From positions 1 to 45,487 of the forward strand of contig PBSU01000048.1 in assembly GCA_002726415.1 (NCBI GenBank): a DNA stretch of 45,487 bases. The letters are read 5' to 3'. This DNA is from Acidiferrobacteraceae bacterium. GTDB lineage: Bacteria > Pseudomonadota > Gammaproteobacteria > Arenicellales > UBA868. The number at the start of each line of letters is the position of its first letter. Position 1 is the first letter of the stretch. Below, one piece after another: positions 17,103 to 43,291 of this stretch. A program made the position numbers and the translations under genes. The notes under the pieces were generated by a model that saw only the letters and a list, made by a program, of their open reading frames with translations, searched no databases and was not told the origin of the DNA.

Positions 17103-17669
17103 ATGAATGATGCCCCTTGCGTCATAGATCCTGAAACCGGCTTTGTTTCCGGAATTGCGTGCCTGTGTTCCCCACATTGTGATGACCGGCCAGTTGCTGG
17201 CGAGATCAGTTTGCTGGTGGTGCACGCCATCAGTTTGCCGCCCGGTGAATTTGGCACCTCAGCTATTCATGACCTTTTTCTCGGATGCCTTGATCCCACG
17301 GCACACCCGTACTTCAGGGATATCTCCATGGCGAAGGTATCCACCCACTTTCTGATCGACCGGCTGGGAAAACTGACTCAGTTTGTGCCCGTTACCCGCA
17401 GGGCGTGGCACGCAGGTGCCTCCTATTTTGAGGGCCGCGATAAGGTCAATGATTTTTCGGTTGGCATTGAACTTGTCGGCTCGGATGAGTCCGCCTTCAC
17501 CGATGCACAGTACGATCGCCTCGTTTCGTTAACTAAGGCTTTGCAGTCTGCCTGGCCGGCGATCGACTCAAGCCGTATTGTGGGTCATAGCGATATCTCC
17601 CCCGGGCGCAAGACTGATCCAGGCCCTCATTTTGACTGGGCACGGTATCAACGCTTACTGGCGACCTGA
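17103..17669 (+). CDS. ampD: 1,6-anhydro-N-acetylmuramyl-L-alanine amidase AmpD
   Basis: VVHAISLPPGEFG...STHFLIDRLGKLTQFVPVTRRAWHAG...IVGHSDISPGRKTDPGPHFDW. Confidence 0.95.
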   Translation: MNDAPCVIDPETGFVSGIACLCSPHCDDRPVAGEISLLVVHAISLPPGEFGTSAIHDLFLGCLDPTAHPYFRDISMAKVSTHFLIDRLGKLTQFVPVTRRAWHAGASYFEGRDKVNDFSVGIELVGSDESAFTDAQYDRLVSLTKALQSAWPAIDSSRIVGHSDISPGRKTDPGPHFDWARYQRLLAT

Positions 17670-18710
17670 CAGGGCCAGACCCGCGATAAGGAAAGCAATC
17701 ACATAGACGATCAGACGGTATGTCACCATGGACCCCGGCGGGATACAGATAAAGGACATGCCGGTCAATCCGCGTTTGCCGATCTCATGGGACAAACGGA
17801 TGATCTCATAGTCCGTCATCCCCATGGGCTCAGCCAGTTCCCCCAGGATATCTCCAGGCGCTGGCCCAGCTCCGCCCAGGATGTCCATATCGAAGTGCAC
17901 GTAGACAGCCTCAGTTCCGTCATAGGCATGCCTTAGTTCATTACAGACGCCGTCGATGCCAAGCTCCGTGCGCACTTTCCACATCGGGTAAAAATGCGCC
18001 CCTTTATTGAGGTAATCCCGGACAGTTTCAGCCTGTTCTAGCATACCCCGCTCACCGATCTCAACCAGGTTCGAGATAGAGAAGTTAGAGAAACTGCTAT
18101 AGGTTTTGGCTTTCCAGTTGCCACTGCCGGCGATGCGTTCATCATTCGTCAGGTAATCAAGTGGCCGTGAATCCCAATGAGTATCTGTGCTGATCATGCC
18201 TACCTTGCCCGCGCACCTCTCGGCGATTGGTTTGGCGATGGCATATGAACTACAGGGGCTGTTCTGACCAATGACGATTGGAATAGCGTCTGCCTCCAAC
18301 GCTCGGTTGACGAGCTCTTCAACCGCCGCCTGTGCTCTGAGAATATTCTCAGCAGTAGGATCCATGTTGGACTCTGACGGAATATCGGCGTCACCCATGT
18401 CGATGACCCTGAGTTTTTCAAAGATATCCATATCCAACTCTTGGATATATCCGCTGGGGTAGCGCGCCGACTGTTGTCGAACCCGCATCGGGGCAGCAAG
18501 CCATTCAGATTTTTCGACTCCCGCATATTTACCACTGGCTCCGGCCACATAGGGCGCACCGATAATCGCGACGTCGGCCCCGGCAATTTCTTCGGCAGTG
18601 CGCGCGTAGGGAACCCCCATAAACGTAGGTGTCTGCGCGTTGATCATGGGCAAAGAGGCGCTGTCAATATCCGTATACCGGCCCATACCCTCCCAAGGGA
18701 GTTTAGTCAT
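17655..18710 (-). CDS. Arginase/agmatinase-superfamily protein with altered first metal motif
   Basis: Has DTHWD and HFDMD, but GQNSP where GGDHS is expected. Confidence 0.75.
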   Translation of the reverse strand: MTKLPWEGMGRYTDIDSASLPMINAQTPTFMGVPYARTAEEIAGADVAIIGAPYVAGASGKYAGVEKSEWLAAPMRVRQQSARYPSGYIQELDMDIFEKLRVIDMGDADIPSESNMDPTAENILRAQAAVEELVNRALEADAIPIVIGQNSPCSSYAIAKPIAERCAGKVGMISTDTHWDSRPLDYLTNDERIAGSGNWKAKTYSSFSNFSISNLVEIGERGMLEQAETVRDYLNKGAHFYPMWKVRTELGIDGVCNELRHAYDGTEAVYVHFDMDILGGAGPAPGDILGELAEPMGMTDYEIIRLSHEIGKRGLTGMSFICIPPGSMVTYRLIVYVIAFLIAGLALSGRQ

Positions 18711-18734
18711 CGCCCCTGTCCTCCAGAGTTCTAT

Positions 18735-19883
18735 TTAATTGTGAATGATTTGTCGTGGTACCTGGTTAACTCTCTCACAGGCACCATCGGTAACGATTGC
18801 GGTTTCACCGACACACATACTGAGGCCAGTATGATCATCCAGCAGAATCATATGCAAGAAAAAAACCATTCCGGGCTCGATAATCTGGGGGTTGTTCTGC
18901 CAGATCATTGGCCAATCCATCCAGGTCGGCGGATAGCTAATGCCGACAGAATAGCCACAGGCACTGAGCGTAGCATGGGAAAAACCGTGCACCTTCATGA
19001 TGCGCTCATGGGTTGCGTGGAGACTCCCAACTGTGTTGCCGGACCGTAGAACGTCCTGGCAGGAGTCAAGGGCCTCACAACAGGCTTCATTCATAGCGCG
19101 ATGGTGTGGGTCGACCACCCCGGTGAGAATGTTGTACATCATGCAGGTATGGTAGTGCCGGTAGGCGGCGGCAGGCTCAAAGACAATTTGATCATCTGGC
19201 GCGATCGTTTCGTCACCCGTGTGATATCGACAGAAAACTGCGGCCTCTCCTGCCCCCATAGGCCAACGGCTGGCGGTCGGGTCACCCCCTTTTGCGAGCA
19301 GCGTGTTCAGCATTGCGCCGTATATTGTCTTGACCGTCGTACCGGGCCGGGTGTGCTGGATGCTGGTCTGCAGAATATGATTGCAGATCTGCCCCGACTG
19401 ACGGATATACTCCAGTTCTAATCTGCTCTTAACCAGGCGCACCAGGCGCACGAGATCTGACGCGTCAATCAGTTGGCAAAAACCCTCAAGGGAGTGGTTG
19501 ACCATCAGGGCACGCTGCCCGGTAAGCCCATAGGCATGGTATTCGATACCAACTCGCTTGTTCGCACATCCGTGATCTTGGAGTATTCGACGCAACTCAT
19601 CCCCCGGTGAAGCGCCATCCTGGTCAACCCAGATATGAATATCCTTTATGGTAGATGTTTCGCGGGCCTGTATCCGATCTGCAGTCCTGGTCAATAGACT
19701 GAGTTGGCCATCGGCTCCCAGGTACAATGCCTGAAACATGGTATAGCCACTGGTGTCATAACCCGTCAGGTAGAACATGCTTTCCTGACGGAACAGCACC
19801 AACCCATCCAGACCAGCGGCGTCCATAGCCGCGCGGGTGCGAGACACACGTTCGGCAAATTCCTCTGGTGGAAAATGCAGCAT
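18735..19883 (-). CDS. M24 / creatinase-like family hydrolase
   Basis: FYLTGYDTSGY N-terminal creatinase domain; EPGMVFFLHMILLDDHTGLSMCVGETAIV; canonical M24 metal ligands not conserved. Confidence 0.8.
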   Translation of the reverse strand: MLHFPPEEFAERVSRTRAAMDAAGLDGLVLFRQESMFYLTGYDTSGYTMFQALYLGADGQLSLLTRTADRIQARETSTIKDIHIWVDQDGASPGDELRRILQDHGCANKRVGIEYHAYGLTGQRALMVNHSLEGFCQLIDASDLVRLVRLVKSRLELEYIRQSGQICNHILQTSIQHTRPGTTVKTIYGAMLNTLLAKGGDPTASRWPMGAGEAAVFCRYHTGDETIAPDDQIVFEPAAAYRHYHTCMMYNILTGVVDPHHRAMNEACCEALDSCQDVLRSGNTVGSLHATHERIMKVHGFSHATLSACGYSVGISYPPTWMDWPMIWQNNPQIIEPGMVFFLHMILLDDHTGLSMCVGETAIVTDGACERVNQVPRQIIHN

Positions 19884-22056: not shown

Positions 22057-23016
22057 ATGTATCAGTACGAGGCTTACGAGGATCCGATCCAGCGCCCACG
22101 CTATACAGGGTTACCGACTTTTATGCGCGCCCCCTACCGGGAAGACTGGCAGGATTTGGATATCGGGCTTGTGGGGGTTCCTTTCGATGGCGGTGTTACC
22201 AATCGTCCCGGTGCCCGGCATGGCCCCCGGGAGATTCGAAACCAGTCCAGCCTGATGCGCCGGCGCAATCAGGCGAGTGGTATTGGCCCCCACGATATCT
22301 GTACAGTGGCTGATCTGGGTGATGCGTGGGTGCAGTCGCCTTTTCATCTTGAAAAAAGCTTAGATGAGATACAGGCATTTTTTGTCCGTGCCCATGAAGC
22401 CGGGGTAACGCCGGTTTCGGCTGGTGGAGATCACTCAATAACCTTGCCGATCCTTCGGGCGATTGCCACTGATGGGCCAGTTGGGCTGGTGCATTTCGAT
22501 GCCCATTGCGATACCGGAGATGACTACCTGGGTTCCAAGTTCCACCACGGGGCGCCGTTTCGGCGCGCCGTTGAGGAGGGACTGGTCGACCCCAAGCGTA
22601 CCATCCAGATCGGCATTCGGGGATCATTGAATGAGCTCGACCAGTGGCAATTCAGCCACGACTCGGGCATGCGTGTGATCTACATGGAGGAGTTTTACGA
22701 AATGGGCGTCAAGGCCGTTATCGCGGAGATTCACCGGGTGACTGGCAATGGCCGTTCCTATCTGACGTTCGATGTCGATGGATTAGACCCGGCCTATGCC
22801 TCGGGCACCGGCACGCCGGAAGTTGGCGGTTTTAGCACTGTGGAGGCGCAACTGATGATTCGCGGTTGCCGTGGGCTTGATCTGGTGGGCGGTGACGTGG
22901 TGGAGGTCGCGCCGCCATTTGATCCCAGCGGCAACACAGCACTGGCTGGCGCAACCATGATGTTCGAGATCTTGTGCGTAGTCGCTGACGCGGTTGCCCA
23001 GCGTACCCACCGTTAA
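22057..23016 (+). CDS. Agmatinase-family ureohydrolase (substrate unknown)
   Basis: Complete motifs GGDHSIT, HFDAHCDTGD, TFDVDGLDPAYASGTGTPE; strong RBS aggggagg. Confidence 0.93.
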   Translation: MYQYEAYEDPIQRPRYTGLPTFMRAPYREDWQDLDIGLVGVPFDGGVTNRPGARHGPREIRNQSSLMRRRNQASGIGPHDICTVADLGDAWVQSPFHLEKSLDEIQAFFVRAHEAGVTPVSAGGDHSITLPILRAIATDGPVGLVHFDAHCDTGDDYLGSKFHHGAPFRRAVEEGLVDPKRTIQIGIRGSLNELDQWQFSHDSGMRVIYMEEFYEMGVKAVIAEIHRVTGNGRSYLTFDVDGLDPAYASGTGTPEVGGFSTVEAQLMIRGCRGLDLVGGDVVEVAPPFDPSGNTALAGATMMFEILCVVADAVAQRTHR

Positions 23017-23930: not shown

Positions 23931-25094
23931 ATGATATTCAGCGATATGGAAATGCAGCGCCGGGTTGAACGGTTGCAAGCGGCCATGAGAGAGCAGGAAT
24001 TAGATCTCGTCATTATTTCATCCTATCACGGTAATTTGTACTACGCTGGGTTCTGGATGATGCCTATGGGTCGGTTCAATTTCACCGTGGTACCGGCCCA
24101 GGGGCCAGTCGCGATCATTGCACCGATCATGGAGCGTGACCGTGTCCCCGCTTATAGCTGGATAAAAGACATGTGTTTCTACAGTGATGCGGGGACTTCA
24201 TTGTCCGGGTTGGTGCAGGCCAGCAGGGAATGGTTGGTTGAGCGTGACTGTGCGCTCGACAGGGTCGGCATTGAGATGGATGTCATGCCGGTCGGTGTGC
24301 TCGAGTCGCTCAAAGTCAGCCTTCCCCGGTCGAACTTCACAGATGTGTCGACCATGCTGATGGAGCACCGAGTGGTGAAATCAAAAGAGGAGATCGATCT
24401 GCTGCGCATCAATGGCCAGATTTCGGATGTAGGAACTGAGACGCTCATGGCTGCGGTGGGAGCGGGAAGAACCGAATTGGAGGTTTCAAATGAAGCCCTG
24501 GTTGCGATGGACCGGGCATTAGTAGAGCAGTTTCCCGACCTTGAGAGTTTTGGAACCGTCATTTCTATCGCATCCGGACCCAGAAGCGTTATCCCACACG
24601 GATTATCTACGGGCAAGAGGTTGGAGCACGGGGAGATTGCGACCTTCAACATACTGTCACAGGTAAATGGTTATTACGTTTCGCTGGAGCGGACTTTATC
24701 CATCGGACCAGTTCGGGAGGACGCCAGGAAACCTTTCGAAACTGTGGTCGAAGCTCATGCTCTTGGGATGGCGGCGGTGAAGCCCGGCGTAAGTTGTGGT
24801 GAAGTTGCCCGGGTCTGCATCGAGGTTCTTGAGCGGGAGGGATATGATCAGCATCAACTGCATGGGCCTGGGCATTCCTGCGGCATCATGGGTCCATTCT
24901 GGGGCCGGGAGGAGAAGGGTGAAATCAGGGCTTATAACGACAGCATCCTTGAACCTGGCATGGTGGTGACTATTGAACCCGCTATCTACCTTCCCGGAGT
25001 AGGAGGTTTTCGACACTGTGACGTACTTGCCATCACCGCAGACGGTTATGAATTATTAACGCATTACGACCGGGGCCTGCTGGAGGTTCACTGA
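23931..25094 (+). CDS. Creatinase-like (M24, non-metal type) hydrolase
   Basis: FNILSQVNGYYVSLERTL, GPGHSCGIMGPFWGREEKGEIR, MVVTIEPAIYLPGVGGFRHCDV closely resemble creatinase motifs; M24 metal Asp ligands replaced. Confidence 0.85.
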   Translation: MIFSDMEMQRRVERLQAAMREQELDLVIISSYHGNLYYAGFWMMPMGRFNFTVVPAQGPVAIIAPIMERDRVPAYSWIKDMCFYSDAGTSLSGLVQASREWLVERDCALDRVGIEMDVMPVGVLESLKVSLPRSNFTDVSTMLMEHRVVKSKEEIDLLRINGQISDVGTETLMAAVGAGRTELEVSNEALVAMDRALVEQFPDLESFGTVISIASGPRSVIPHGLSTGKRLEHGEIATFNILSQVNGYYVSLERTLSIGPVREDARKPFETVVEAHALGMAAVKPGVSCGEVARVCIEVLEREGYDQHQLHGPGHSCGIMGPFWGREEKGEIRAYNDSILEPGMVVTIEPAIYLPGVGGFRHCDVLAITADGYELLTHYDRGLLEVH

Positions 25095-25152
25095 GTCGCC
25101 GGGTTTCTGGTCGGCACTAACCCGTTTCTTTCAGTAAGTACAGGAGAAGAAT

Positions 25153-25536
25153 ATGTTCGTTCGAAGGTTATCTGATGTGGTGGGTACGGAGCGCGACGTC
25201 GACTGGGGTAGCGGGCAAAGCCGACGGTTGCTGATCGAAAAGGACAACATGGGTTTTGCCTTTCTGGATACGATTGTCAATGCCGGTACCGATGTTCTGC
25301 TGCAATATCGGCATCACCTGGAGTCTGTCTACTGCATTGAGGGCAAAGGGGAGATCATTGACCAGGCCAAAGAAGAAAGTCACACAATAGAACCCGGTAC
25401 TCTCTACGTTCTGGACAATCACGACCTGCATCGTCTGCGCGCACGTACAGACCTGCGCCTTATCTGCGTGTTTAACCCGCCGATCCAAGGTAATGAACGC
25501 CACGATATAACGAGTGACGGTGGCTCAGCCTATTAG
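25153..25536 (+). CDS. EctC-like cupin (L-ectoine synthase family), orphan
   Basis: MFVRRLSDV...HHLESVYCIEGKGEI...LYVLDNHDLHRLRA...CVFNPPIQGNERHD. Confidence 0.88.
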   Translation: MFVRRLSDVVGTERDVDWGSGQSRRLLIEKDNMGFAFLDTIVNAGTDVLLQYRHHLESVYCIEGKGEIIDQAKEESHTIEPGTLYVLDNHDLHRLRARTDLRLICVFNPPIQGNERHDITSDGGSAY

Positions 25537-25808: not shown

Positions 25809-25878
25809 TTATCCAACCCCGACAAGTTGCGTGTCGGCTTCTGGTGTTTTTATCAACCAAACCTTCGAGGAAGCTTCG

Positions 25879-27672
25879 ATGTCAGATTACACCGCTCCAC
25901 TGGCCGACCTGCGCTTTGCACTGAAGCAGGCTGGTATGGATGACCTCGCCTCATGGCCGGGTTTTGAGGATGCAAGCCAGGACCTGGTCGATGCTGTGCT
26001 GGAGGAAGCGTCCAAGTTTGCCACCCAGGTTTTAGCGCCCATCAATCGGGAGGGTGATCAGGCCGGTCCTATAGTCCGCGATGGTGAGGTCACAACAGCT
26101 GCCGGGTGGAAAGAAGCCTATGACCGGTTTACTGAAGGGGGTTGGACGGGTCTGGTGTTGGATCCGAAATACGGGGGCCAGGGATTACCGCAGACTCTGG
26201 CGTGCGCAGTCCAGGAGATGTGGGATGCGGCCAATATGGCATTTGGGTTGTGCCCCATGCTCTCCCAGACCGCCGCAGAAGCAATATCACTGAGGGGCAG
26301 CGAGTCGCAAAAGGCGCTATTTCTGCCAAACCTGATTTCAGGGAAGTGGACCGGAACCATGAATCTGACCGAACCCCAAGCCGGTTCAGATCTTGCTGCC
26401 GTACGCACCCGTGCTGTTGCGACAGAAGAAGGACACTACCGGCTGAGCGGACAGAAGATTTTTATTACCTACGGGGAACATGATCTTGCTGAGAACATCA
26501 TTCATCTGGTGTTGGCGCGAACCCCCGATGCACCTGCAGGTATCAAGGGTATATCGTTATTTATCGTGCCTAAATTTATTCCGGATGAAAAGGGTAATCC
26601 AGGTGAACGCAATGACGTGCGCTGCGTCTCTTTGGAGCACAAGCTGGGCATTCACGGCAGTCCGACGGCGGTATTGTCCTACGGCGACAACGGTGGGGCA
26701 GTGGGCTATCTCGTTGGCGAAGAAAATCGAGGCCTGGAATACATGTTCATCATGATGAACCGGGCCCGCCATGCTGTGGGCATCGAGAGCTACGCCATTG
26801 CGGAACGGGCGTATCAAAGGGCGTTGCAGTTTTCCCGCGAGCGGGTCCAGGGCCGTGTGGTTGGCGATATCAGCGGAGAGCGTGCCGCGATCGCGCATCA
26901 CCCGGATGTTCAGCGCATGTTGCTCAGCATGAGAAGTCGCATTGAGGCGATGCGTGCGCTGTCGTTGTATACCGCGGCCGCGGCTGACCGGGCAAGTCAT
27001 CACCCCGATGTGACAGAGCGCGAGCGGGGACAACGACAGGTAGAAGTGCTGATCCCCGTCGTAAAAGGCTGGAACTCAGAGGTGGGTAACGAGATTACCG
27101 GCCTTGCACTGCAGGTGCACGGTGGTATGGGTTACATCGAGGAGACCGGGGCAGCCCAGCATTATCGAGATGCACGCATTACCACGATCTATGAGGGTAC
27201 GACCGGAATCCAGGCAGCTGATCTGGTGGGACGCAAATTGCTTCGTGATGGCGGACAGATGGTGCAGGAATTAATCGGAACCATGGGTCAAGAACTGGAG
27301 TCGATAACAGCTAACGCCAACGGTGCTGTGAAAGAGGTGAGTGTGTCTGCGACGGCTTTGGTAGAAAGTCTGGCACGTACCACGGCAACCCTGCTGGATT
27401 GCGCAACGCGGAGCCCTCGCGCGCCTTATTTAAATTCATTCAGTTATCTGATGCTCTGGGGTGTGGCAGCAGGGGGCTGGCAAATGGCAAGGGCGGCTGC
27501 CGCAGCGCAGCGCGCGCTTGACACGGGCGAGGGCGATGAGGCGTTTTCCCGCGCCAAGTTGCTCAGTTGTCTGTATTACGCCAGACAGGTATTGCCGCAC
27601 GGTGAGGCTTATGCCCAGGCGGTGGGAGCACAGGGCCTGCCAGAACAGGATCTGGCTGAACTGGTTTCATAG
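25879..27672 (+). CDS. Acyl-CoA dehydrogenase, long form with C-terminal extension (possibly DmdC-like)
   Basis: TMNLTEPQAGSDLAAVRTRA...QVHGGMGYIEETGAAQHYRDARITTIYEGTTGIQA; about 598 aa. Confidence 0.92.
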   Translation: MSDYTAPLADLRFALKQAGMDDLASWPGFEDASQDLVDAVLEEASKFATQVLAPINREGDQAGPIVRDGEVTTAAGWKEAYDRFTEGGWTGLVLDPKYGGQGLPQTLACAVQEMWDAANMAFGLCPMLSQTAAEAISLRGSESQKALFLPNLISGKWTGTMNLTEPQAGSDLAAVRTRAVATEEGHYRLSGQKIFITYGEHDLAENIIHLVLARTPDAPAGIKGISLFIVPKFIPDEKGNPGERNDVRCVSLEHKLGIHGSPTAVLSYGDNGGAVGYLVGEENRGLEYMFIMMNRARHAVGIESYAIAERAYQRALQFSRERVQGRVVGDISGERAAIAHHPDVQRMLLSMRSRIEAMRALSLYTAAAADRASHHPDVTERERGQRQVEVLIPVVKGWNSEVGNEITGLALQVHGGMGYIEETGAAQHYRDARITTIYEGTTGIQAADLVGRKLLRDGGQMVQELIGTMGQELESITANANGAVKEVSVSATALVESLARTTATLLDCATRSPRAPYLNSFSYLMLWGVAAGGWQMARAAAAAQRALDTGEGDEAFSRAKLLSCLYYARQVLPHGEAYAQAVGAQGLPEQDLAELVS

Positions 27673-37886: not shown

Positions 37887-39500
37887 ATGTACGATAGACA
37901 AAAGTCCGAAATTGATCGCCTGCAGGATCAGGTAGTCAAAGGCAAGATGAGCCGACGGGAATTTCTCTCCCGCATTTCTGCGATGGGACTGGGTGCCATG
38001 GCGCCCGGCCTGTACATGCAAAGCGCAATGGCAGCGCCAAAGCAGGGCGGACGTTTTCGCCAGGGTGTGACCGGCGGCGCCACCAGCGACGTGCTGGATC
38101 CAGGGCAGATTCTGGATCACTACATGATGAATGTGCAATTTGCTCAACTTCGCAATAACCTGACCGAGGTCGCCCCCTCCGGCGATCTGGTTCCCGAACT
38201 CGCGGAGAGTTGGGAAGGCAGCAACGGCGCCAAAACATGGAACTTTAAGGTTCGCCAGGGTGTCGAATTCCACAATGGCAAATCACTCACCTCTGAAGAC
38301 GTGGTGGATTCGCTGAACCACCATCTGGGCGAAGACTCCAAGTCTGCAGCCAAGGGTCAGTTGGGCGCGGTGACCTCAGTAAAAGCAGATGGCAAGTACG
38401 GCGTAGTGGTGGAGTTGTCAGGTGGAGATGCGGACTTTCCGTTCATCCTGACTGATTATCACCTGCTGATTTGCCCCTCTAACGGAGATGGCACGATCGA
38501 CTGGCAATCCGGAGTTGGCACTGCTGGCTACACCCTGGTTGAGCATGAGCCGGGCGTTCGCACGTTAACCAAGGCCAGCCCCAATTACTGGAAGCCAAAC
38601 CGGCGTTTCTTTGATGAAGTAGAAACCCTGCAGATCGCCGACTCGGCTGCCCGGGAGAATGCCCTGCGTACCGGTGAGATCGACGCAATGAACAACGTGG
38701 CCCCCAAGACCGCTGATCTGCTCAAGCGTCAGTCGGGCATCGTGGTAGATGTGACCAAGGGTAACAAGCAGGTTACCCTGCCGATGCTGACCAACATTGC
38801 GCCGTTCGATAACAACGATGTGCGTACCGCGATTAAGTATATTGTCGACCGTGAGCAATGGCTCAAAGTGGTCGCTCGAGGGTACGGTGAGCTGGGTAAC
38901 GATAATCCCATTGGTCCGGCCAACGTTTATCGAGCCACCACCGATGAATTGCCCCAGCGTGGCTACGATCCGGACAAGGCCAAGTATCACTTGAAGAAAG
39001 CCGGTTTCGACAGTCTCAACGTCAAGTTCCACGCAGCAGAAACCGGATTTGGTGGATCAATCGACGCTGGCCAGCTGATGGCCGAGACCGCACGCCCAGC
39101 CGGCATCAATATTGAAGTCGTGCGTGAACCGGATGATGGTTACTGGTCGAACGTGTGGATGAAAAAGCCATTTAGCGCTTGCTACTGGTCGGGTCGTCCC
39201 ACCGAGAACATGATGTTCTCCACTGTTTACTGGGGAGAAGCGGCCTGGAATGATACCTACTGGAAAAACGCCCAGTTTGATGATCTGCTGCTGCAGGGGC
39301 GTATCGAGACAGATGCCACCAAGCGTCGTGCGATCTACGTAGAGATGCAACAGATCGTACACAGCGACGGTGGTACGGTGTTGCCGCTTTTCCTGCAGGA
39401 TATCTTTGCCACTAACGACAAAATCCGTCATCCTGATGTGATCGGGGGCAACTGGGAACTTGACGGCATGAAAGCCGTAGAACGTTGGTGGTTTGCCTGA
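37887..39500 (+). CDS. Dpp/Opp-type ABC transporter substrate-binding protein with Tat-like signal
   Basis: N-terminal MSRREFLSRISAMGLGAMAPG; SBP_bac_5-type LVPELAESWEGSNGAKTWNFKVRQGVEFHNGKSLTSEDVV. Confidence 0.93.
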   Translation: MYDRQKSEIDRLQDQVVKGKMSRREFLSRISAMGLGAMAPGLYMQSAMAAPKQGGRFRQGVTGGATSDVLDPGQILDHYMMNVQFAQLRNNLTEVAPSGDLVPELAESWEGSNGAKTWNFKVRQGVEFHNGKSLTSEDVVDSLNHHLGEDSKSAAKGQLGAVTSVKADGKYGVVVELSGGDADFPFILTDYHLLICPSNGDGTIDWQSGVGTAGYTLVEHEPGVRTLTKASPNYWKPNRRFFDEVETLQIADSAARENALRTGEIDAMNNVAPKTADLLKRQSGIVVDVTKGNKQVTLPMLTNIAPFDNNDVRTAIKYIVDREQWLKVVARGYGELGNDNPIGPANVYRATTDELPQRGYDPDKAKYHLKKAGFDSLNVKFHAAETGFGGSIDAGQLMAETARPAGINIEVVREPDDGYWSNVWMKKPFSACYWSGRPTENMMFSTVYWGEAAWNDTYWKNAQFDDLLLQGRIETDATKRRAIYVEMQQIVHSDGGTVLPLFLQDIFATNDKIRHPDVIGGNWELDGMKAVERWWFA

Positions 39501-39529
39501 TTAACGCAGTGCCTAAGTAGCAAAATCAG

Positions 39530-39566
39530 CCTGGTGGGGCCGGCGCGGCCCCACCAGGTTTTTTTT
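39530..39566 (+). terminator. Strong intrinsic terminator/attenuator after substrate-binding protein gene
   Basis: 12-bp perfect stem CCTGGTGGGGCC-GGCGC-GGCCCCACCAGG followed by TTTTTTTT. Confidence 0.93.
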
Positions 39567-39577
39567 GCCTCAATAAA

Positions 39578-39661
39578 ACCGGGGCACGCAGAAAGATGCG
39601 GAAAAACGAATGTGGTCGGAAAGGGGTCTGATGGCGACCGCTCGATCCGTGATGCCCCGGT
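39578..39661. other. Predicted nested stem structure in SBP-permease intergenic region
   Basis: ACCGGGGCA/TGCCCCGGT outer stem; TGCGGA/TCCGTG; GTGGTCG/CGACCGC inner stem (G-U allowed). Confidence 0.4.
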
Positions 39662-39781
39662 CTTGGCCGCTTCATTGGCAGCGCGTTTGCGTGTTGGCCG
39701 AACTCGGTTAAATTACACGAACACAAAGTGGGAATCCGGGCTTCCAAGCTTTTGTATCAAGGAAGATCGAATCCATAAGAG

Positions 39782-40756
39782 GTGCAACCAGGAGATGGGG
39801 TGTCTTCGTTAGCTAAAGTCATACTGCAGCGTTTAGGTTTGGGATTACTGACACTGTTTGTCGTCTCGCTGATTATTGCCTTCGTTGTGGAACTGCTTCC
39901 CGGGGATATTACGCAGGCGCTCCTGGGCCAATCTGCTACACCTGAGACGGTTGCAGCCTTTCGGGCAGAGATTGGACTGGATCGCCCGGCCCACATCCGG
40001 TACCTGGAATGGCTCAAGGGGATGCTGACAGGGGATATGGGGAAATCCCTGGCCAGTAAACGCGACATCACGGAGTTTGTCGGAACCCGGCTTTCCAACA
40101 CGTTGTTCCTGGGCGGGGTTGCGGCTGCCATCGCGGTGCCTTTTGCGTTATTCCTGGGTCTGCTCGCAGCGCTTTACCGCAACAGCATTTACGATCGGAT
40201 TGTGAACCTGACAACGTTAACGTCGATATCGTTTCCAGAGTTCTTTGTGGCTTATATATTGATCCTCTTTTTGTCGGTCAAGAGCGGGATTTTTCCGGGC
40301 ATCTCTAATGTCAGCACCGATCTTGCCTTTAGTGACAAGCTTTTTCGGACAATTTTGCCGGCCCTGACCTTAACCTTGGTCGTATTGGCCCATATGTTAA
40401 GGATGACGCGTGCTGCGATCATTAATCTGCTTTCTAGCCCTTATATCGAAATGGCGCACCTCAAAGGGACTCAGCCTTTCCGGGTGATTGTGCGCCACGC
40501 GTTACCTAACGCCTGGGGTCCCATTGTCAATGTCATTGCGCTGAACCTGGCATACCTCGTGGTCGGCGTTGTCGTCGTCGAAGTGGTCTTTGTCTACCCC
40601 GGGTTGGGGCAACTGCTGGTCGATAGTGTCTCCAAGCGGGATCTGCCAGTCGTACAAGCTTGCGCCATGATTTTTGCAGCCGTTTATATCCTGCTCAACC
40701 TGGTGGCAGATATCGTGGCGATTGTCTCCAATCCACGACTGCTACATCCACGCTAG
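39782..40756 (+). CDS. ABC transporter permease, DppB-like
   Basis: LTGDMGKSLASKRDITEFVGTRLSNTLFLG...RHALPNAWGPIVNVIALNLAYLVVGVVVVEVVFVYPGLGQLLVDSV; GTG start or downstream GTG at 39800. Confidence 0.92.
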   Translation: MQPGDGVSSLAKVILQRLGLGLLTLFVVSLIIAFVVELLPGDITQALLGQSATPETVAAFRAEIGLDRPAHIRYLEWLKGMLTGDMGKSLASKRDITEFVGTRLSNTLFLGGVAAAIAVPFALFLGLLAALYRNSIYDRIVNLTTLTSISFPEFFVAYILILFLSVKSGIFPGISNVSTDLAFSDKLFRTILPALTLTLVVLAHMLRMTRAAIINLLSSPYIEMAHLKGTQPFRVIVRHALPNAWGPIVNVIALNLAYLVVGVVVVEVVFVYPGLGQLLVDSVSKRDLPVVQACAMIFAAVYILLNLVADIVAIVSNPRLLHPR

Positions 40757-40768
40757 AGAAAGGGCGAA

Positions 40769-41596
40769 ATGATCAGACTCTTTCTTTCGGCCCCGTTCAG
40801 CGCAAAGGTAGGCCTTGTGGCTATTTCGGGGTACGTGCTGGTCGCTTTGCTGGCACCTTGGATCGCGCCTTACAAGGAGACGGCGATTGTGGGCGCCTCT
40901 TATGAGTTATGGTCGGATCAGTTTATGTTGGGCACCGATAATATCGGTCGCGATATGTTGACGCGATTGATTTATGGTGCGCGCAACACCATCGGGATTG
41001 CATTTGCTACCGTCGTGTTAGCTTTCCTTATCGGCGGCATCACCGGGATGCTGGCAGCGATTCTAGGTGGCTGGTACGACATGTTGATCAGCCGGGTTGT
41101 CGACATCCTGATGGCCATACCCTCACTGATTTTTGCCTTACTGCTGTTGACCATTTTTGGCACGTCGATTCCATCACTGGTGATGATCATCGCCCTGCTG
41201 GACAGTACCCGGGTATTTCGAATTGCCCGATCCGCAGCCATGAATGTTGTAGTAATGGAGTTCGTTGAGGCAGCCCGGCTTCGTGGGGAAGGGATGGGAT
41301 GGGTCATCCGCAAGGAGGTGTTGCCCAATATCACCGCTCCGTTGTTGGCAGAATTCGGGTTGCGTTTTTGCTTTGTGTTTCTCTTTATCGCGGCCCTCAG
41401 TTTTCTGGGGTTGGGAATCCAGCCACCGACAGCAGATTGGGGTTCCATGGTCCGCGAGAATGCGACCCTGATCAACTACAACGACATCACGCCTTTGTTG
41501 CCAGCGGCAGCGATTGCGGGCCTCACTGTCGCCGTGAATTTTGTCGTTGACTGGATGCTGCATCTATCCAGCGGATTGCGCAGCGATCAGCCCTGA
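40769..41596 (+). CDS. ABC transporter permease, DppC-like
   Basis: [26 protein letters not shown]...[29 protein letters not shown]...[16 protein letters not shown]. Confidence 0.93.
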
Positions 41597-41613
41597 ACAT
41601 AAGCCGAGGTTTC

Positions 41614-42249
41614 GTGAAAGACCAAGAGCACCCCCACGAACACGATCATACCGAGCCACCGGGTGATCTTGAATTGAAGGTTAAGGCGTTGGAGTCATTG
41701 CTGGTGGAGAAAGGGCTGGTGGTGCCAGCGGCCCTTGATGTGTTGATCGAGACCTACGAGCATAAAGTCGGTCCACGCAATGGGGCGCAGGTGGTGGCAA
41801 AAGCCTGGGCGCAGCCTGAGTTCAAAGAGTGGCTGCTGGAGGATGGCACGGCAGCAATTGCCTCCCTGGGCTACACCGGCCGCCAGGGAGAACACATACA
41901 GGTAGTAGAGAATACCCCTATGGTGCACAACCTGGTCGTCTGTACGTTGTGCTCATGTTACCCCTGGCCGGTACTGGGTCTTCCACCGGTCTGGTATAAA
42001 TCAGCGCCCTATCGCTCCAGAGCGGTAAGCGATCCGCGGGGCGTATTGGATGAGTTCGGCACGATCCTGGATGACCATGTTCAGATCCGGGTCTGGGATT
42101 CCACGTCAGAGATGCGTTATCTGGTACTCCCCCAGCAGCCGTCAGAAACCCAGGGGTGGCCTGAGGAGACGCTGGCGGGCCTGGTAACGCGTAATGCCAT
42201 GATCGGGGTCGAAAAAATACCCCCACCGAAGGCGCAGGGGGCACCATGA
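41614..42249 (+). CDS. Nitrile hydratase alpha subunit, Co-type
   Basis: [46 protein letters not shown] claw; His-rich N-terminus; GTG start. Confidence 0.96.
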
Positions 42250-42914
42250 CGGGCGGTCACGACCTGGGCGGAAAGCCGGGTTTGGGGCCGATTTGCCCGG
42301 AGCCTGAATCACACGAGCCAGTGTTTCATGCGGACTGGGAAAAACGGGTATTCGCTATGACACTGGCCTGCGGGTTCCTGGGTCGTTGGAATCTGGATGA
42401 ATCCCGTCATGCCCGCGAACGCCAGCGACCCGAGGATTACCTGCGTCAGAGTTACTATGAAAACTGGTTAGCAGGACTGCAGACGTTGTTGGCCGAGAAG
42501 GGGCTGGTGTCGTTGCGGGAGTTGGAAACGGGAACGGCTGTGGGGAAGCCGGCTGAAATTGCGGCGGCACTATCGGCGCAGGCGGTGCCCCAGGTTCTTT
42601 CCCGTGGGGCCCCGGTCGATATGGTGATCGAGCAAGAGGCATGTTTCTCTCCAGGAGATCTGGTGCGAGTACGAAGGGAGTCGACCGGCGGCCACACCCG
42701 AGTGCCGGCCTATCTGCGCGGTCGGGAGGGCATCATCCAGCATCATCATGGTGCTCATGTATTCGCTGATCAGCATGCGCGCGGGCAACGCGAAGGGCAG
42801 CATCTTTACAATGTTGCCTTCTCCTCAACCAGGATCTGGACTGACGAGGAGAACCCCGTTACCGACTTCATGGTGAGGGTAGATTTGTGGGAACCCCAAC
42901 TGGCGCCGCTGTGA
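42246..42914 (+). CDS. Nitrile hydratase beta subunit
   Basis: [16 protein letters not shown]...[41 protein letters not shown] overlap with alpha. Confidence 0.94.
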
Positions 42915-43291
42915 GCTTGCAGGGAATCCCACAACCTGCCGAACTCGCGGGCTTGCCGGTCGATACCGAAGGGCCAGTGTTCGCTAAACCGTGGGAGGCA
43001 CAGGTATTTGCCATCGTGATCGAGTTACACCGGCAGGGTCTTTTCTCCTGGGCGGAGTGGACTGAACGCCTATCCACCCAGATCGCTCTGGTGCGTGAGC
43101 GGGGTGAGGCAGACCTGGGAGATACCTACTATCAGCACTGGCTGACAACTCTTGAGCTGATGCTCTACGATAAAAATGTGATGCAGGATGTTGAGGTACG
43201 TCAGTATGCGGTCCGGTGGCGTCAGGCCTACCTCAACACACCCCATGGCAAGCCGGTCGCACTATCATCTGGGGATGATAAGCCGGCATAA
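42911..43291 (+). CDS. Nitrile hydratase accessory/activator-like protein
   Basis: PVFAKPWEAQVFAIVIELHRQGLFSWAEWTERLSTQI...DTYYQHWLTTLELML; GTGA overlap with beta. Confidence 0.88.
   Translation: MSLQGIPQPAELAGLPVDTEGPVFAKPWEAQVFAIVIELHRQGLFSWAEWTERLSTQIALVRERGEADLGDTYYQHWLTTLELMLYDKNVMQDVEVRQYAVRWRQAYLNTPHGKPVALSSGDDKPA

Follow-up and report, generated by a model that had tools for sequence, protein, structure and literature searches.

An orphan EctC-type cupin paired with a creatinase-type hydrolase in a probably mobile two-gene cassette of an Acidiferrobacteraceae bacterium

Ectoine synthase (EctC) forms a cyclic amidine by ring closure between an amide and an amine, and creatinase-type enzymes act on substrates with a carboxylate, from which they cut the carbon of an amidine or guanidine. 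In the EctC of P. lautus, Trp-21 and Asn-38 touch N-gamma-ADABA and ectoine, and the W21A mutation leaves 9.7% of the activity (PMC6344544). The EctC of H. elongata hydrolyses the cyclic amidines homoectoine and DHMICA and converts glutamine to ADPC in a reversible reaction whose equilibrium favours the open form; the reverse activity of EctC on ectoine itself is negligible (PMC5924519). Approximately one quarter of the EctC proteins in a published survey are orphans, the function of which was declared unresolved (PMC5924519, PMC6344544); a shifted Trp has been described in some of them (PMC6344544), and the orphan ectC of Pseudomonas syringae, which an earlier note on the present DNA had mentioned as an example, is indeed documented (PMC5924519). 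The likeness of the ectoine hydrolase DoeA to creatinase has also been published (PMC3187862).

The window, i.e., the whole stretch of 45,487 nucleotides analysed here, is one contig of a 2.0-Mb assembly that is 80% complete, and public records list the near relatives of this genome as Acidiferrobacteraceae or Arenicellales MAGs. A gene for a creatinase-type hydrolase with Creatinase_N and Peptidase_M24 domains (PF01321 and PF00557; positions 23931 to 25094, plus strand; 387 aa from the ATG at 23931), here called M24a, is followed by a gene for an EctC-type cupin of 127 aa (25153 to 25536, plus strand). The two open reading frames and the spacing of about 58 bp are those given in the earlier note. 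The 58-bp spacer (25095 to 25152, plus strand) contains a ribosome-binding-type AGGAG at 25142 to 25146 and is 59 bp long in three relatives. Upstream of M24a are ArgA, a 3-guanidinopropionase-like ureohydrolase (22057 to 23016, plus strand; 396 bits to 3nip), and a genus-conserved GFA-domain protein (PF04828; 23130 to 23537, minus strand), and an acyl-CoA dehydrogenase (ACAD, assigned by Pfam; 25831 to 27672, plus strand) lies downstream of the cupin. There are no Rfam elements in the window, and scans for repeats, promoters, and terminators around the two genes yielded nothing informative.

Two further gene groups were observed in the window. On the minus strand (17655 to 19883), an arginase-fold protein, in which the first metal motif is degenerate (GGDHS to GQNSPC), and a DoeA-like M24 protein are encoded as a pair that is kept in five congeners (L172 to L176) with ArgA nearby; this is a second unexplained arginase-fold/creatinase-fold couple. 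On the plus strand (37887 to 43291), the alpha and beta subunits of a nitrile hydratase and a separate protein matching the beta N-terminal domain only are encoded directly after a peptide-type ABC transporter; its binding protein and one of its permeases are similar to genes adjoining EctC in another locus, L006.

The cupin scores 157 bits against the Pfam family Ectoine_synth (PF06339; E = 3.1e-46, cut-off = 27) and 169.2 bits against the NCBIfam ectoine synthase model PRK13290.1 (cut-off = 128). Its best solved relatives by sequence search and predicted fold are the ectoine synthases 5onn and 5bxx, and its predicted structure is nearest to 5onm and 5bxx, with E-values well ahead of those of other cupins. 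The protein therefore falls inside EctC, as had been proposed, and does not group with non-EctC cupins. In the alignment to P. lautus EctC, the iron ligands Glu57, Tyr84, and His92 correspond to E57, Y85, and H93, and S23, R25, T40, Y52, C104, and F106 are also kept. The earlier note had judged the iron-ligand Glu, Tyr, and His to be retained and the Trp near the substrate pocket to be out of register; both points hold, since position 21 is Gly and a Trp is found at position 18 instead. Position 38, at which the canonical His or Asn contacts the substrate carboxylate, is Leu, and thus the cupin has neither the Trp-21 nor the His/Asn-38 that mark the ectoine synthase pocket.

These two positions separate EctC proteins according to their gene neighbourhood. 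In a sample clustered at 85% identity, Trp-21 is present in 38 of the 39 clusters with ectAB nearby, and 37 of the 39 have His or Asn at position 38. None of the 17 Gly-21 clusters has ectAB nearby and none has His or Asn at position 38, so that the signature of this group is W21 to G together with H/N38 to L, T, C, M, or A. The Gly-21 proteins, to which the residue table and the tree assign the window's cupin, form one clade (SH-aLRT = 95), and the seven-member subclade of the window is supported at 99, in a tree built from few columns with uncertain deeper branching. M24 genes occur near EctC in 4 of the 40 clusters without ectAB versus 0 of the 39 with ectAB, a difference in the expected direction that is not significant (p = 0.12).

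The three nearest cupin relatives from outside (66 to 72% identity) lie next to a true ectoine hydrolase or to demethylating flavoproteins, in MAGs named Gammaproteobacteria and Rhodobacteraceae. The cupin of L005 is followed by a EutC remnant and then by a true DoeA (634.7 bits, cut-off = 613), that of L006 precedes a dimethylglycine-dehydrogenase-like (DMGDH-like) protein, and in L007 sarcosine-oxidase-like genes, the cupin, a DMGDH-like gene, and two M24 genes follow one another. With a reduced length of 203 aa and two disjoint stretches of profile match, the EutC of L005 (490 to 1101) looks like a remnant. Among the more remote clade members, those of L049, L104, and L142 adjoin amidases, and others stand in settings with AMP-ligase, carrier-protein, and acyl-CoA-dehydrogenase genes or with PKS genes. 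Judged from these neighbours, the Gly-21 clade seems to be an enzyme type for forming or opening rings that several pathways have recruited.

Several other arrangements were seen among the EctC relatives. Gly-21 cupins occur with AMP-ligase and acyl-CoA-dehydrogenase genes, in some cases also with carrier-protein genes, in L141, L146, L147, L132, and L008; these loci span Alphaproteobacteria, Streptomyces, Gammaproteobacteria, and Methylobacter and may represent an undescribed type of biosynthetic cluster. Tandem proteins with two EctC-like domains, divergent at most ligand positions, are encoded in L081 (8227 to 9054), L082 (8331 to 9158), L083 (6677 to 7501), and L133 (86 to 973), and the one in L081 has a gene of the creatininase family and a glutamine-synthetase-like gene nearby. 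Orphan EctCs of a second clade, with Trp-21 and Thr-38, have as neighbours a canonical-looking creatinase in L075 (9710 to 11387) and DMGDH-like and MTTB-family genes in L080 (3486 to 8892).

The best PDB match of M24a in the sequence search is creatinase 1chm (E = 2.5e-50; DoeA, E = 4.6e-14), and its predicted structure is closer to the creatinases (TM = 0.90, RMSD = 2.5 Å) than to DoeA (TM = 0.84, RMSD = 3.9 Å). In the alignment, R48, H223, E253, R333, and E349 are invariant with the canonical creatinases; we take R48 and R333 to be the carboxylate-binding arginines, and H223, E253, and E349 the catalytic His, Glu, and Glu, of creatinase 1CHM. The metal ligands of the peptidases are absent, and M24a combines the Creatinase_N and M24 domains as creatinases do. 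The description of the hydrolase as creatinase-like is thus borne out by its architecture, its kept active-site residues, and its nearest structure. M24a is only 31 to 35% identical to the canonical creatinases, and its closest other kin, at 36 to 40% identity, are a separate family found elsewhere in the order; the substrate of M24a may therefore be something other than creatine. An assignment of M24a as DoeA is ruled out by the two NCBIfam DoeA models, against which it scores 120.2 bits (cut-off = 575) and 85.6 bits (cut-off = 613), as well as by the predicted structure and the active-site residues, as both creatinase Glu residues are kept in M24a and missing in the DoeA-type proteins compared. 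The members of its nearest sister family in L152 to L155 (approximately 38% identity) are located in clusters that, judged by eye, resemble purine catabolism, which suggests another amidine or guanidine hydrolase.

A search of the 80%-complete genome for further ectoine genes gave one match to PF06339, the cupin itself. No EctA was found by family search and no EctB above the cut-off (best EctB-family score = 182 bits, cut-off = 552), nor was EctB above the cut-off in the genomes of six relatives; neither ectD nor a dedicated ask is evident in the list of open reading frames of the window. The absence of ectA and ectB, which had been remarked for the window, therefore extends to the 80%-complete genome; ectoine biosynthesis by ectAB encoded elsewhere, which the earlier note had proposed to look for, is rejected at this completeness, and the assignment of the cupin as an orphan EctC is supported. 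This marine bacterium is apparently unable to produce ectoine. DoeB was absent by family search from this genome (80% complete) and from that of L002. Contig C24 carries a canonical-looking creatinase. On contig C6, Ehu-type transporter genes (EhuA, EhuC, and EhuD above the cut-off, EhuB below) adjoin a DoeA-like gene (416 bits, cut-off = 613), and uptake of an ectoine-like solute by this bacterium is plausible from gene content; the M24a-EctC pair is not linked to these genes. The 2.0-Mb genome has at least nine M24-family matches (contigs C24, C6, and C49), including a DddP-like gene and an M24 gene clustered with EutA-like and diaminopropionate-ammonia-lyase-like genes.

The two genes behave as a unit. 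Close homologues of M24a (at least 74% identity) and of the cupin (at least 87%) are present in the same 4 of 33 sampled family genomes (that of the window, G107, G087, and G088) and in no others, always in the order M24a, 58 to 59 bp, EctC, so that the pairing pointed out in the earlier note is a conserved one; the four genomes belong to one family, and their co-occurrence does not count as four independent events. The dN/dS ratios against the three relatives are about 0.06 to 0.08 for EctC and about 0.11 for M24a, and both genes are under purifying selection. In the window, the pair is inserted between GFA and ACAD, and in five congeners without it (L172 to L176) ArgA and GFA are followed by a large membrane protein or by nothing before ACAD, where the contig reaches that far. 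The flanks in G087 and G088 are wholly different from those of the window. In G107, the pair follows ArgA, and a transporter and ACAD are on a contig that seems to continue this one; no remnant of the downstream MFS gene of G107 was detected by tblastn after EctC in the window. G107 also carries a second M24a copy (74% identical) at the edge of contig C189. The pair is a functional, probably mobile cassette that occupies several places in the chromosomes compared. The idea that ArgA is a required third member is weakened by the five congeners, which carry it at the same chromosomal place without the cassette; it is genus-core, may be an accidental neighbour, and is probably not part of the cassette.

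Tentatively, and with somewhat less than even confidence, we regard the pair as a compact, horizontally mobile module by which a carboxylate solute with an amidine or guanidine group, and not ectoine, would be degraded or salvaged. This reading is favoured by the co-occurrence of both genes in the same four genomes, their fixed order, the differing flanks in G087 and G088, and the low dN/dS; by the creatinase site kept in M24a, the iron site kept in a cupin that has lost W21 and H/N38, and the lack of ectAB in the Gly-21 clusters; and by the catabolic genes next to the nearest outside relatives (L005, L006, and L007) and the hydrolysis of cyclic amidine analogues by H. elongata EctC. The biosynthetic-looking clusters of other cupins of the clade, the p value of the M24 enrichment, and the negligible reverse activity of EctC on ectoine argue against it. 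A cyclic amidino or guanidino acid whose ring is opened and whose amidine is hydrolysed would suit EctC chemistry and creatinase-type cleavage taken together. The metal-dependent cupin would interconvert a cyclic amidine or guanidine and its open-chain form, most likely as a ring-opening cyclohydrolase, and M24a would cleave the amidino or guanidino acid at its Arg/Arg, His, and Glu/Glu site to an amine and urea or an amide. From these relationships we infer the substrate class, the direction, the order of action, and the sharing of one pathway by the two enzymes. The conversion between cyclic and open-chain forms of an ectoine-like or other solute suggested in the earlier note fits the chemistry of both families; ectoine as that solute does not agree with the replacement of W21 and N38 and the failed DoeA models. 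ArgA, although urea-forming, is a core gene and thus does not identify the substrate. It is possible, if rather unlikely, that the Gly-21/Leu-38 subclade is a new cyclic amidine or guanidine cyclohydrolase or cyclase for an unrecognised marine solute, which with its dedicated creatinase-type hydrolase would make up a two-gene degradation pathway moving between bacteria.

An accessory role in ectoine or hydroxyectoine catabolism, in which M24 enzymes hydrolyse ectoine and the cupin either closes the by-product N-gamma-ADABA, not a substrate of DoeB, back to ectoine or acts on a related ring, is the less likely for the DoeB missing from the genomes of the window and of L002, the exclusion of M24a as DoeA, the altered ectoine-site residues 21 and 38, and the lack of linkage of DoeAB genes to the cassette. 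We consider it unlikely on balance, even though the cupin, a EutC remnant, and a true DoeA follow one another in L005, the cassette genomes of L003 and L004 carry DoeB above the cut-off with DoeA-like and EutA-like genes away from the cassette, Ehu-type genes adjoin the DoeA-like gene in the window's genome, and H. elongata DoeA in E. coli produces both N-Ac-DABA isomers, of which the gamma form is not used by DoeB (PMC3187862, PMC5924519). A DoeA-like/DoeB/EutA-like region looks near-identical in two MAGs assigned to different genera (L195 and L196), which would reflect recent transfer or mixed binning. That the cupin is a genuine ectoine synthase acting on imported N-gamma-ADABA, as proposed for P. 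syringae, whose orphan ectC made an ectC mutant of H. elongata produce ectoine again (PMC5924519), would agree with the NCBIfam score and with the kept iron ligands, S23, R25, T40, Y52, and F106; the exchange of W21 for Gly, in view of the low activity of W21A (PMC6344544), the Leu at position 38, and an M24 hydrolase as an odd partner for a synthesis-only enzyme make this improbable.

The AMP-ligase, carrier-protein, acyl-CoA-dehydrogenase, or PKS genes beside several members of the clade would suit a pair that makes or tailors a cyclic amidine natural product or solute with the cupin as cyclase. Activating and carrier enzymes do not adjoin the pair in the window, however, and the neighbours of the closest cupin relatives look catabolic, so we hold such a role to be decidedly doubtful. 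Salvage of creatine or creatinine, with the cupin opening or closing creatinine (or a guanidino-acid lactam) and M24a as a divergent creatinase, appears very unlikely: the genome already has a canonical creatinase, to the family of which M24a is only distantly related (31 to 35% identity), and lactam opening is, to our knowledge, not EctC chemistry. The kept creatinase active site, the sarcosine-oxidase and DMGDH-like genes near the cupin relatives, and the unrelated orphan EctC located 56 bp from the canonical creatinase in L075 speak for it; the L075 genes, however, are convergent and not an operon.

No description of the pairing of a creatinase-type enzyme with EctC or of the residue-38 signature was found in the literature searched, which included few subscription papers, and searches on EctC homologues in other pathways and on creatinase with guanidinopropionase gave no account of an M24a/EctC pair. 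The conserved unit with a mechanistically understood partner leads to a concrete substrate panel, by which the role of an orphan EctC becomes testable. W21 to G together with the residue-38 signature separates an orphan-only clade from the EctCs of ectoine producers, and EctC matches alone are an unsafe basis for predicting ectoine production. If true, the catabolic module would suggest that marine systems contain a cyclic nitrogenous solute that has so far escaped recognition.

Compared with ectoine synthases (P. lautus, 5ONM to 5ONO; S. alaskensis, 5BXX), the cupin of the window has the same fold, length, iron ligands, and most of the substrate-pocket residues at approximately 43% identity, whereas Gly-21, Trp-18, and Leu-38, the lack of ectAB beside it, and the hydrolase partner set it apart. 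It shares the lack of ectAB with the published orphan or solitary EctCs, in some of which a shifted Trp was reported (PMC5924519, PMC6344544); its fixed creatinase-type partner and its residue-38 signature have no counterpart in the accounts of them that were searched. M24a has the domain architecture, the catalytic residues, the metal-ligand loss, and the predicted structure of creatinase (creatine amidinohydrolase, 1CHM), although it shows low identity to the canonical creatinases and belongs to a separate subfamily. The ectoine hydrolases DoeA/EutD belong to the same M24 creatinase-like superfamily; in contrast to them, M24a lies far below the DoeA cut-offs and has the two creatinase Glu residues that DoeA-type proteins lack.
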